Origin: Pedobacter sp. MC2016-15
GTDB lineage: Bacteria; Bacteroidota; Bacteroidia; Sphingobacteriales; Sphingobacteriaceae
Assembly (NCBI RefSeq): GCF_026239695.1
Contig: NZ_JAPIVS010000005.1
Span: forward strand, 248,001-312,000
Reading direction: 5' to 3'
DNA length: 64,000 bases
The translations under genes and the position numbers were made by a program. Of the stretch, positions 42,583-45,159 are shown one piece after another; position 1 is the stretch's first letter, and each line of letters starts with the position of its first letter. The notes below the pieces were generated by a model. The model saw nothing but the letters and a program-made list of their open reading frames with translations, did no database searches and was not told where the DNA came from.

Positions 42583-43278
42583 TTACAGACTATTCAGTGG
42601 CAAAATCAGATCAGAGTGGTTATTATGCACTTTATTGATCACGGTACTGTTCACCTTAGTAGATACTTGTGTAGACCTCATCAGGTCATCAGGATAGGGA
42701 TTGCAGAGACTCAATAAATCAGGAATACTTAAATCTTTGCTTAACCACAGTGCTTCCTCATTTTTATCCAGGATGACCGGCATTCTGAATTTGGGATCAT
42801 GTACTTTACCCACCGTGCTGTTAGAATTGGTAGTCATAATCGTAAATGAGCGGTACAACTCACCCGTTAACTTACTCTGCCACTGGCTCCACAAGCCCGC
42901 AAAAGCGAATACCTCACGATCGGTAATCGTAAACCTGTAGGGGATAGAAGCCCCACTTTTCCTGTCCCATTCATAAAAACCATCGGCCAGCACCAAACAG
43001 GTTTTATGGTGCTTCAATAAGGGCGACCAGGTACGGTTTCCGGCAGCCTCTTCACTTCTGGAGTTTAAGGTAGAAAAATTCAGCTTTACCGATTCTGCCC
43101 AATGCGGAACCAATCCAAAGTGCATCTGCTGTGCCGTATCTGGTACATCGGCGGTAATTACCAATCCATTTTGTGTAGGCGCAAGATTAAAATTAGGAGC
43201 GTAATCATTTGGGAGTTTCACCTCGTAAGCTTTTAACAGATCTTTTTCTTTTTTGGTCAGCGTATATCTCGCACACAT
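42583..43278 (-). CDS. SOS response-associated peptidase (SRAP/HMCES/YedK family)
   Basis: Protein that forms a covalent thiazolidine crosslink to abasic sites in single-stranded DNA and shields them. It has 231 residues. The start at 43278 puts the essential cysteine at position 2 (MCARYTL); any longer start would bury it, so this start is firm. The other active-site parts are NSRSE (near 70), GFYEW (near 100) and the histidine in KVHDPKFRMPV (near 160). It is divergent from umuDC, and the shared spacer holds a palindrome, which supports a common DNA-damage control. Confidence 0.94.
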   Translation of the reverse strand: MCARYTLTKKEKDLLKAYEVKLPNDYAPNFNLAPTQNGLVITADVPDTAQQMHFGLVPHWAESVKLNFSTLNSRSEEAAGNRTWSPLLKHHKTCLVLADGFYEWDRKSGASIPYRFTITDREVFAFAGLWSQWQSKLTGELYRSFTIMTTNSNSTVGKVHDPKFRMPVILDKNEEALWLSKDLSIPDLLSLCNPYPDDLMRSTQVSTKVNSTVINKVHNNHSDLILPLNSL

Positions 43279-43389
43279 ATTTTCGGAATAAAAAGGAGCA
43301 CCAGGCATCCATCGGTCACAGATACCAATATAGCATAAAAATCCTTTTCTTTTGGGACGGATGCACTTCAAATAGGAGTGCTAATATAG

Positions 43390-43402
43390 TTAGTTTTACT
43401 AA
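43390..43402. promoter_or_regulatory. Inverted repeat in the SRAP-umuD spacer
   Basis: TTAGT, 3 bases, ACTAA: a perfect short palindrome 50-62 bp before umuD and 112 bp before SRAP, just upstream of the umuD promoter core. It is a candidate damage-response operator; the binding protein is unknown. Confidence 0.35.
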
Positions 43403-43451: not shown

Positions 43452-43922
43452 ATGAAGGAATTGCTGTTGTATGAAAAAGGAGAGAGTGAAACGCTGATTC
43501 CTCTGTTCCTGGAGAAGATCCATGCGGGCTTTGAAAGCCCCGCTGCAGATTACGAAGAAGAACGGATAGATCTAAATACCTATGTGACCAAGTACCCTCA
43601 CGCTACTTTTTATGCAAGGGTTGTGGGCGATTGCATGACAGGTTCCGGCATCTATCCTGACGATCTTTTAGTAGTGGACCGCTCCCTTAATCCTACGAAC
43701 GGTGATATTGTCGTAGGTATTCTGGACAACGAATTTATCCTGCGGTCGTACTTTAAAACGGGAACGAAGGAATACCTTATGCCAGATAATGTAGCTTATC
43801 AGCCGATAGCGCAGAACCCTACTACCCATTTTGAAATCTGGGGTGTGGTACCACATAGTATTTTAGATCAGAGAAGGAGGATCAATGCTCGCCTTAATAG
43901 ATTCCAACAATTTTTACGTTAG
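43452..43922 (+). CDS. umuD: UmuD-like protein with substituted catalytic dyad
   Basis: S24/LexA-fold accessory subunit of an error-prone polymerase, 156 residues. The cleavage region HAGFESPAADY keeps an Ala25-Gly26 bond aligned with Cys24-Gly25 of E. coli UmuD. The nucleophile position reads GDCMTGSGI (Cys61 for Ser60), and the lysine position reads EFILRSY (Arg98 for Lys97). Self-cleavage by the known Ser-Lys mechanism is therefore doubtful. The rest of the fold (DDLLVVDRSLNP, NGDIVVGILDNEF) is normal. It overlaps umuC by 38 bp, so the two are translationally coupled. Confidence 0.92.
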   Translation: MKELLLYEKGESETLIPLFLEKIHAGFESPAADYEEERIDLNTYVTKYPHATFYARVVGDCMTGSGIYPDDLLVVDRSLNPTNGDIVVGILDNEFILRSYFKTGTKEYLMPDNVAYQPIAQNPTTHFEIWGVVPHSILDQRRRINARLNRFQQFLR

Positions 43923-45159
43923 TGCTGAGCGGGTATTTCAACCTGCATTGCGTGGCCGGCCAGGCTGCGTATTGAGTAATAATGATGGATGTGCCATATC
44001 CAGGAGCAACGAAGCGAAGGAGATAGGCATCAAGATGGGCACTCCATATTTCGCCATGCAGGAACAGCAGCAGCTGGGGGAGATCTGGTGGCGCTCTTCA
44101 AATTATACTTTGTACCAGGATATGATGCGAAGGATTACCGGCATCGTACGGGATACTTTTCCTGATCAGGAAATATATTCTATTGATGAATGTTATTGTG
44201 ACTTAAGCAGTTTTGCATATCATGATATCGAAAAGCAGGCGATTTTACTGAGATCCAAAATTCTTCAATATACCGGTGTTCCTGTTTGCATCGGCATTGG
44301 TGCAACTAAGACCCTGGCGAAAATCGCCAATAAGATCGCCAAAAAAGAACATGCCAGTACCGGAGTGTTTTTCATGGATACACAGGAGAAAATCGATTAT
44401 AGTTTACAGGAAACCGCCATTGAAGATGTCTGGGGAATCGGGCCACGTTACGCCATTAAGTTAATTAAACAGGGTTTCTACACGGCTTTAGATTTTGTCA
44501 ATCTGCCAGAAGACTATGTATTAAAACTGATGACTATCCAGGGCCGCAGAACCTGGCGCGAGCTGCAGGGGGAGCGCTGCATCCCGATGGAATATGAACC
44601 ACCCGCTAAAGAAGGTATCTCCACAGGGCGGTCTTTTTGCAAAATGGAAACGGAACTGGCGCCCATAGAAGAAGCACTGGCATTTTATGTAGCCAACACT
44701 GCGGTCAAGTTGCGCAACCAGCAATGTGTATGCAGCAGGATGTTTGTTTACCTGCAGACCAGCCAGTTTGCTGTAGTCCATAGAAAATACTGTGCAGAGA
44801 TAGACCTCAAACTTTTGGTGGCCACGGCAGAAACAGGGAAACTGATCAAGGAGGCCCTTGCGGGATTAAGGAAAATATACAAGCCTGGTTTCAGGTACCA
44901 GAAGGTAGGCGTAGAGCTGCGGGGACTGATACCTGACACACAAGTGCAGGCGTCGTTATTTGAAGCGGTACCGGATGCGAAGGAGCTTAAGATGCAGCAG
45001 GCATTGAAGGTGATCGACCAGCTGAATAGCAGTTACGGGCGGGATATGGTGAGGTATGGAACAATGGGGTTCAGCAAATCCTGGGCGATGCGGCAGGAGT
45101 TTTTATCCAAGAGATATACCACGAGAATTGAAGATGTGATTAAGGTTAAGGCTTATTGA
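43885..45159 (+). CDS. umuC: Y-family DNA polymerase V catalytic subunit UmuC
   Basis: Translesion polymerase, 424 residues. Visible are the palm residues ALIDSNNFYVSAERVF (first Asp) and SIDECYCDLS (catalytic Asp-Glu), GCVLSNNDGCAISRSNEAK in the fingers, the helix-hairpin-helix block IGIGATKTLAKIANKIAK and VWGIGPRYAIKL, and the little-finger and C-terminal UmuC domain (YGRDMVRYGTMG). The start lies inside the end of umuD. Together with SRAP it forms a mutagenesis and abasic-site cassette. Confidence 0.96.
   Translation: MLALIDSNNFYVSAERVFQPALRGRPGCVLSNNDGCAISRSNEAKEIGIKMGTPYFAMQEQQQLGEIWWRSSNYTLYQDMMRRITGIVRDTFPDQEIYSIDECYCDLSSFAYHDIEKQAILLRSKILQYTGVPVCIGIGATKTLAKIANKIAKKEHASTGVFFMDTQEKIDYSLQETAIEDVWGIGPRYAIKLIKQGFYTALDFVNLPEDYVLKLMTIQGRRTWRELQGERCIPMEYEPPAKEGISTGRSFCKMETELAPIEEALAFYVANTAVKLRNQQCVCSRMFVYLQTSQFAVVHRKYCAEIDLKLLVATAETGKLIKEALAGLRKIYKPGFRYQKVGVELRGLIPDTQVQASLFEAVPDAKELKMQQALKVIDQLNSSYGRDMVRYGTMGFSKSWAMRQEFLSKRYTTRIEDVIKVKAY

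Follow-up and report, generated by a model that had tools for sequence, protein, structure and literature searches.

A UmuD homologue of Pedobacter with cysteine and arginine in place of the Ser-Lys dyad and a possible cysteine-based removal of its arm

In textbook accounts, the mutagenic polymerase V has its safety catch in the self-cleavage of UmuD, and the locus studied here raises the question of what becomes of this catch in a UmuD from which the Ser-Lys catalytic dyad is absent. The window, that is, the whole stretch of 64,000 nucleotides of Pedobacter sp. MC2016-15 that was analyzed, holds such a umuD gene together with the following features:

42583 to 43278, minus strand: SRAP (SOS response associated peptidase) gene, 231 aa, product starting with MCARYT (PF02586, 1.5e-57)
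43381 to 43393, plus strand: putative SOS operator CTAA-N5-TTAG (CTAATATAGTTAG), exact match, between the divergent SRAP gene and umuDC
43452 to 43922, plus strand: umuD with Cys61 and Arg98 replacing the Ser-Lys dyad, intact ORF with an ATG start, 156 aa
43503 to 43508, plus strand: codons of Leu18-Phe19, by sequence comparison the E. coli arm-docking Leu17-Phe18
43521 to 43523, plus strand: codon of His24, P2, beside the scissile bond (His in 24 of 25 Cys UmuDs)
43524 to 43529, plus strand: codons of Ala25-Gly26, the presumed cleavage bond (Ala 17/17 and Gly 17/17 in Cys/Arg UmuDs)
43632 to 43634, plus strand: codon of Cys61, nucleophile position (Cys in 25 of 25 clade members)
43743 to 43745, plus strand: codon of Arg98, general-base position (Arg in 17 and Ala in 8 clade members)
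43885 to 45159, plus strand: umuC, Y-family polymerase, 424 aa, with IMS, IMS_C, and DUF4113 domains and a SIDE motif in its sequence

As judged from sequence and predicted structure, the window protein is a UmuD homologue by fold and operon and is not a Ser-Lys peptidase by test. Peptidase_S24 was the sole domain that Pfam found in it (3.1e-22), its score against the NCBIfam model NF007621 ("polymerase V autoproteolytic subunit") was 123.8 bits (cut-off of 110), and its best solved relatives were E. coli UmuD and UmuD' chains (8gmt, 2.1e-25; 1umu, 9.8e-23). The AlphaFold2 model had a mean pLDDT of 77.4, with blocks at 83 to 95 from residue 51 on and low-confidence blocks at 44 to 53 for residues 1 to 40, which include the arm. 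It was closest to UmuD' 1umu (Z of 15.9, rmsd of 2.3 over 105 residues), followed by RecA-bound UmuD 8gmt (Z of 15.7, rmsd of 1.6 over 98 residues), and sequence profiles and predicted structure both assign the protein to the S24 C-terminal fold of UmuD'. Other assignments were rejected, namely, the arm-less HumD or UmuD' form (the ORF has a 25-residue arm, and the HumD model gave 69.1 bits versus a cut-off of 120), a UmuDAb-type repressor (there is no N-terminal DNA-binding domain, Pfam finding Peptidase_S24 alone), LexA (56.6 bits versus the equivalog cut-off of 110.95), and an active Ser-Lys S24 peptidase (nucleophile Ser and base Lys are both missing). NF007621 names the protein an "autoproteolytic subunit" above its cut-off despite the absent dyad; one of four other dyad-less UmuDs scored with the same model (L229) passes too.

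The translation contains ...KIHAGFESPAADYEEERIDLN...ARVVGDCMTG...NEFILRSYF.... Alignment to E. coli UmuD places Cys61 at Ser60 and Arg98 at Lys97, as an earlier note on this DNA had read them; the gapless alignment at a one-residue offset that it described holds as far as roughly residue 105, beyond which one residue is gapped. There is a third change in the active site, Ile96 at the equivalent of Thr95. The 25-residue N-terminal arm carries an Ala-Gly bond, Ala25-Gly26, at the place of the E. coli scissile bond Cys24-Gly25. This bond had been called normal, which is right in that Ala is the usual P1 residue of UmuDs with the Ser/Lys dyad (Ala in 77 and Cys in 5 of 82), although the E. coli bond itself has Cys. 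The gene was correctly described as intact and coupled to umuC: the ORF is whole, and an equally intact umuC starts inside it at 43885, giving an overlap of 38 nt.

A total of 206 distinct UmuD ORFs were read, partly best matches and partly picked across families, and their counts are not frequencies; one of them (L032) is truncated and was dropped from the residue counts. By the residues at positions 60/97 (n = 206), they were classified as Ser/Lys (82), Ala/Arg (56), Cys/Arg (17), Gln/Arg (10), Glu/Arg (9), and Cys/Ala (8), with His/Arg (6), Asp/Arg (5), Ser/Arg (4), Gly/Arg (3), Thr/Arg (3), Met/Arg (1), and Ile/Arg (1) as the rarer classes. Matches were present in 59 of 201 genomes drawn at the family level (own genome included), in 110 of 400 drawn from the order (134 matches listed, 12 of them left unread, some being short or interrupted), and in 28 of 145 drawn from the genus, where 13 genomes (14 loci) score as Cys type; the one among these that the other draws had not given (L211 of G806) reads HAG and GDCM. 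The scan of named genomes gave 22 loci, 20 with Cys (Pedobacter, Parapedobacter, Mucilaginibacter, and one Sphingobacterium MAG) and two, from Prevotella MAGs, with Ser. From the phylum draw, the best 29 and 40 across families among the matches listed were taken, and the resulting 56 Ser/Lys to 13 dyad-less UmuDs is not a frequency.

Cys UmuDs thus amounted to 25 distinct ORFs, 17 with Arg98 (Cys/Arg) and 8 with Ala98 (Cys/Ala, from Mucilaginibacter). The earlier note had asked whether GDC with Arg marks a conserved clade; the cysteine does, being present in 25/25 members of one umuC clade, while the arginine is shared by 17/25 only, with Ala in 8/25. It had also considered that relatives might all carry GDSM and Lys, which is not what we found: the nearest five other loci of the 201 family-level genomes (53 to 74% identity) all have Cys61, with three Arg and two Ala at position 98. 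Loss of the dyad is wider than the Cys clade, extending to a larger Bacteroidota set in which Lys is always replaced by Arg and Ser by Ala, Gln, Glu, His, or others. Arg occupies the Lys97 place in 98 of 98 non-Cys dyad-less rows and seems to serve some purpose in its own right at this site. Given that all six Arg codons are used in these rows and that Cys61 is coded by both TGC (15) and TGT (10) within the clade, both states seem to be of long standing.

With regard to mobile elements, tblastn gave UmuD matches in 72 phage records, all of <60% identity, and the UmuDs among the plasmid matches listed (at least 5,000) were likewise all <60% identical; two phage UmuD stretches that were read are Ser/Lys. 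Within IMG/VR, three of six confirmed loci have the Cys form (L270 and L271, Cys/Arg; L272, Cys/Ala). These are viral contigs with a Cys-type umuDC, two of them with an exact SOS box no more than 250 bases upstream, and the Cys form may move with phages. One genome carries two Cys/Arg umuD copies ca. 5.5 kb apart (L038 and L111 on G307:C11), whose UmuD domains are identical in protein at a dS of 0.29.

On the umuC trees, the genes of the Cys clade, which was found in Pedobacter and relatives, formed one side of a branch with a support of 99 (138 rows), 100 (132 rows; 41 of the 206 rows are without a usable umuC), and 100/99 (82 rows, the careful tree). The Mucilaginibacter Cys/Ala rows nest inside it, and its nearest relatives are Ser/Lys umuDC genes (96/93, 82-row tree). 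The changes between live and dead dyads needed on these trees were 2, 4, and 4, respectively. A single common loss was rejected, with a p-AU of 0.0012 for all 48 dyad-less rows as one clade on the 82-row careful tree. Uniting the Cys clade with the order-level non-Cys clade gave a p-AU of 0.045 on that tree and of 0.566 on the 132-row quick tree (the constrained tree being 6.6 log units better), and uniting the non-Cys rows of the order with those outside gave 0.025 on the 82-row tree; all of these groups were defined post hoc, from trees already built, and the 82 rows had been thinned, 12 long rows being removed beforehand. Separate losses of the dyad in the Cys clade and in the large order clade are therefore favored but not settled. 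The UmuD tree (112 columns), which is weak and has long branches meeting, needed two live/dead changes. It groups two non-Cys rows, L141 and L170, with 27 Cys rows (support of 99 for the 29-row group), of which L170 (Ile/Arg), on an end branch of 4.0 and without umuC, says little.

The dyad-less UmuDs are under purifying selection. Nei-Gojobori dN/dS values in the Cys clade were 0, 0.005, and 0.011 (three pairs with a dS of 0.1 to 1.2, one of them the two copies of one genome), and the medians were 0.05 for other dyad-less UmuDs (12 pairs, including two distant ones at 0.82 and 0.98 with dN near 1) and 0.051 for Ser/Lys UmuDs (52 pairs). The earlier argument against simple decay is hence strengthened by the 25 distinct Cys UmuDs, their umuC clade, and these near-zero ratios.

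P1 alanine separates the Cys clade from the non-Cys dyad-less UmuDs. It is found in 25/25 of the former and in 0/96 of the latter aligned at this position; the 98 non-Cys rows have Ser (46), Leu (28), Thr (19), Met (1), Lys (1), or Asn (1), two being unaligned. The P2 histidine is found in 16/17 Cys/Arg and 8/8 Cys/Ala UmuDs (the exception has Asn), but in 0/138 non-Cys rows and in 0/82 Ser/Lys UmuDs. Cys/Arg UmuDs also retain P1' Gly (17/17) and the arm-docking pair, with Leu in 16/17 and an aromatic residue in 16/17 (Phe 14, Tyr 2; Val 1). In the Cys/Ala UmuDs, the docking Phe is replaced by Ala (8/8), and P1' is Ala in 7/8. According to the accessible text of PMC12984324, residues 55 to 60 and 109 to 116 of E. 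coli UmuD belong to the structural catalytic core. The Cys clade has kept Gly59 (25/25), Asn113 (24/25), and Pro118 (25/25), equivalent to E. coli Gly58, Asn111, and Pro116, which persist in 18, 10, and 7 of the 84 order-level non-Cys dyad-less UmuDs, most of which are without the arm-docking motif and core residues. Nevertheless, 13 dyad-less rows from outside the order, with Thr at P1, have Gly58 (13/13) and Pro116 (11/13) without a nucleophile, so that a kept core alone is no proof of activity. In 49 of 99 non-Cys dyad-less rows (truncated L032 counted), the Met closest to the bond precedes it by 14 residues, and the short-armed, undocked dead UmuDs could be standing mimics of UmuD'.

Row L141 has Gly at position 61 and has lost His-Ala-Gly, with an arm and a C-terminal extension of the Cys-clade kind. 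It appears that here the loss of the cysteine accompanied the loss of the cut site, although the missing umuC confounds the comparison. The gene (G261:C4:148714-150943) shares an SOS-boxed cluster with a 155-aa ORF (no Pfam match) and a 2OG-Fe(II) oxygenase, by eye of the AlkB type.

The umuC gene is directly downstream of umuD in 135 of 155 UmuD ORFs (one reading round). In the Cys clade, the conserved beginning of umuC overlaps the end of umuD (43885 to 43922 in the window) and thereby also encodes the final residues of UmuD, which may account for the conserved C-terminal extension. The SRAP gene of the window is divergent from umuDC, with the SOS box in between, and among the 20 named Cys-type loci L172 to L191, 11 have an SRAP ORF no farther than 3 kb away. 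The accessible text of PMC8565304 describes non-canonical LexA repressors of Bacteroidetes whose operator, CTAA-N5-TTAG, precedes umuDC, recA, and further genes, and makes no mention of UmuD catalytic residues being absent. The box at 43381 to 43393 is the sole exact match within the window, but 1.06 matches are expected per 64 kb by chance; the evidence is therefore its position and not its presence. Along similar lines, the pattern is not enriched genome-wide in G000 (48 places versus 160 for the reversed control pattern), so that the support for the box is again positional. An exact box precedes 18/18 Cys/Arg umuD genes (window included), 3/8 Cys/Ala, and 80/84 non-Cys dyad-less genes, and shuffles of the same upstream stretch reach one in 0 to 3% (rows listed); the figure for Ser/Lys genes is 22/53, but many of these come from other lineages, perhaps with other operators, and the contrast with dyad-less genes proves nothing. 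The own genome encodes two further S24 proteins (L002 and L003). L003, a helix-turn-helix S24 protein (Pfam) with Ala-Gly, GDSM, and Lys, is preceded by two SOS boxes, at distances of 32 and 98 bases from its start (0/200 shuffles have two), and is a candidate for the Bacteroidota SOS repressor. Transcriptional SOS control seems to be intact while the Ser-Lys step is gone.

The reading that we favor, with a probability of roughly 0.45, is that of an SOS-controlled polymerase V UmuD whose arm control has moved from the Ser-Lys dyad to a cysteine site. The sequences themselves show the clade, which residues it has retained or lost, selection, the SOS box, and the operon; the steps that follow are inferred. 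DNA damage would lift the repression that the Bacteroidota SOS repressor exerts at the umuDC box, and the overlapping genes would yield UmuD and UmuC. UmuD dimers would dock their 25-residue arms in the E. coli fashion, and on a RecA filament, Cys61 would cut the Ala25-Gly26 bond, probably assisted by the arm's own His24 and, in the Pedobacter branch, with Arg98 probably holding the thiolate; the trimmed UmuD' would then activate UmuC. The Mucilaginibacter branch, with Ala98, mostly P1' Ala, and no docking Phe, probably has a weak reaction or none.

Cutting by cysteine is consistent with the joint retention of P1 Ala (25/25), the core, arm docking (in Cys/Arg UmuDs), and P2 His (24/25), with the joint loss of the cysteine and His-Ala-Gly in L141, and with Cys61 being held through both of its codons. 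The Cys/Arg UmuDs keep a docked arm, which, if uncut, should restrain UmuC; hence, either Cys61 cuts, or UmuC can by now be active with the arm in place. Cutting by another UmuD seems not to be generally available, since a Ser/Lys UmuD was seen alongside a Cys UmuD in only 1 of 19 order genomes (E of 1e-6; up to 10 candidates scored per genome). The E. coli signal peptidase is said to keep some activity when its nucleophile is changed from Ser to Cys, LexA Lys156Arg reportedly cleaves slowly at high pH, and a Ser60Cys derivative of UmuD has reportedly been made. Several observations speak against cutting by cysteine, however. The general-base position holds Arg, which is not expected to serve as Lys does; in other dyad-less lines, the change from Lys to Arg accompanies the loss of P1 Ala, and all 17 Cys/Arg UmuDs carry Ile or Val in place of Thr95. 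Given that the Mucilaginibacter branch keeps Cys (8/8) and His (8/8) without Arg98 and with P1' Ala in 7/8, the pair is perhaps kept for another reason. All Cys UmuDs form one clade and so count as one evolutionary event. Furthermore, L141 is also without umuC, and its double loss may be plain repurposing, the 13 UmuDs from outside the order keep the core without a nucleophile, and the predicted model gives the arm low confidence (pLDDT of 44 to 53, residues 1 to 40).

A more specific and more doubtful version makes the Cys clade a cysteine-type self-cleaving member of S24, with the arm histidine giving substrate-assisted help, while other Bacteroidota lineages would more than once have dropped the cutting of UmuD, so that polymerase V came to be controlled by transcription. 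If the cysteine and arm histidine do work in this way, the molecule to be cut supplies part of the catalyst.

Cysteine-based arm removal is only narrowly favored over a pseudoprotease, that is, a UmuD that is never cut and works at full length with UmuC under transcriptional control alone, with the arm possibly binding UmuC, the clamp, or ClpX. Both dyad residues and the Thr95 equivalent have changed, and the same step from Lys to Arg was taken in large Bacteroidota lines without P1 Ala and often without more of the site. Since those lines are under purifying selection like that of Ser/Lys UmuDs (medians of 0.05 and 0.051) and 80/84 are SOS boxed, an uncut UmuD seems to be useful. Against this stands E. 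coli, in which, as far as the accessible text of PMC3901139 goes, UmuD S60A strongly lowers UV mutagenesis and UmuC is held in check by the full-length protein. A shorter, motif-less arm seems to be the way in which many dyad-less UmuDs cope, slightly resembling E. coli UmuD 18, which, in the parts of PMC5342242 that were available, lacks 17 residues, is uncut, and resembles UmuD'. In the Cys/Arg UmuDs, arm, docking motif, and Ala-Gly bond are all retained.

That the arm is removed in trans by another S24 protein, such as the candidate SOS repressor L003, or by a cellular protease is improbable. The own genome does encode L002 and L003, and the available parts of PMC5342242 give a precedent, the arms of E. 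coli UmuD S60A being cut in trans within heterodimers. Nonetheless, L003 is a helix-turn-helix repressor by Pfam and L002 is alike by eye, neither being an evident dimer partner of UmuD; among the 19 order genomes that carry a Cys UmuD, 18 showed no Ser/Lys UmuD at an E of 1e-6, and fixed Cys61 and His24 would be left unexplained. Even less probable is a redox or metal site in which Cys61 and His24 pin and release the arm reversibly, by thiol oxidation or a metal, with no cutting. Cys (25/25) and His (24/25) are indeed kept more strictly in the clade than Arg98 (17/25), but in an alignment of 19 Cys-clade rows, no other Cys or His stands in a column with little or no variation, and such a site gives no reason for the retention of Ala-Gly. 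Finally, a single decayed or mis-sequenced copy, in favor of which nothing was found, is ruled out for practical purposes by clade-wide fixation, near-zero dN/dS, intact frames, and the SOS box, chance and error being excluded because the nearest relatives have Cys at the same place.

In comparison with known systems, the window UmuD shares with E. coli UmuD the fold, arm length, docking motif, bond position, umuC operon, and, putatively, an upstream SOS operator. It differs in Cys61/Arg98, Ile for Thr95, His at P2, and a C-terminal extension of ca. 15 residues partly coded by the umuC overlap. With the non-Cys dyad-less UmuDs of Bacteroidota, it has in common the replacement of Lys by Arg, the SOS box, mostly a umuC partner, and purifying selection, but these have Ala, Gln, Glu, His, or others as nucleophile residue and no Ala at P1, and within the order, unlike in the Cys clade, their arm is often shorter and their core eroded. 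The E. coli S60A, UmuD 18, and UmuD 3A proteins likewise have an arm that is not cut in cis by Ser-Lys chemistry; they are laboratory constructs, however, and UmuD 18 and 3A are without the docking motif that the Cys/Arg UmuDs keep. SipA of Streptococcus pyogenes (4n31; Z of 8.3), which reportedly lacks the dyad, and phage 186 CI (2fjr; Z of 9.2) belong to the same superfamily but have functions other than that of UmuD. The accessible text of PMC12984324 describes 186 CI as lacking the canonical active site, and no Cys-His site in either protein was found in the literature covered, part of it seen as partial text. The non-canonical LexA of Bacteroidetes shares the S24 domain and CTAA-N5-TTAG wiring but, in the accessible text of PMC8565304, keeps Ala-Gly and Ser-Lys and has a helix-turn-helix domain.

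Our search of the mostly open-access literature, in part available as partial text, found no report of a dyad-less Bacteroidota UmuD or of a Cys S24 peptidase, and the accessible parts of PMC6511836 and PMC12926913, on UmuC/UmuD complexes, do not treat dyad-less UmuD. NF007621 names such proteins "autoproteolytic subunit," and this annotation hides the change. Several lineages of one large phylum have dropped the Ser-Lys chemistry of the safety catch while keeping the operon, mostly SOS boxed and under purifying selection, and for that reason, the catch seems not to be essential to the system. In the Cys clade, UmuD may be activated by another route. With its arm and bond unchanged and other residues at the active site, this clade is a natural comparison, which makes testable what an uncut or cysteine-cut UmuD does for UmuC.
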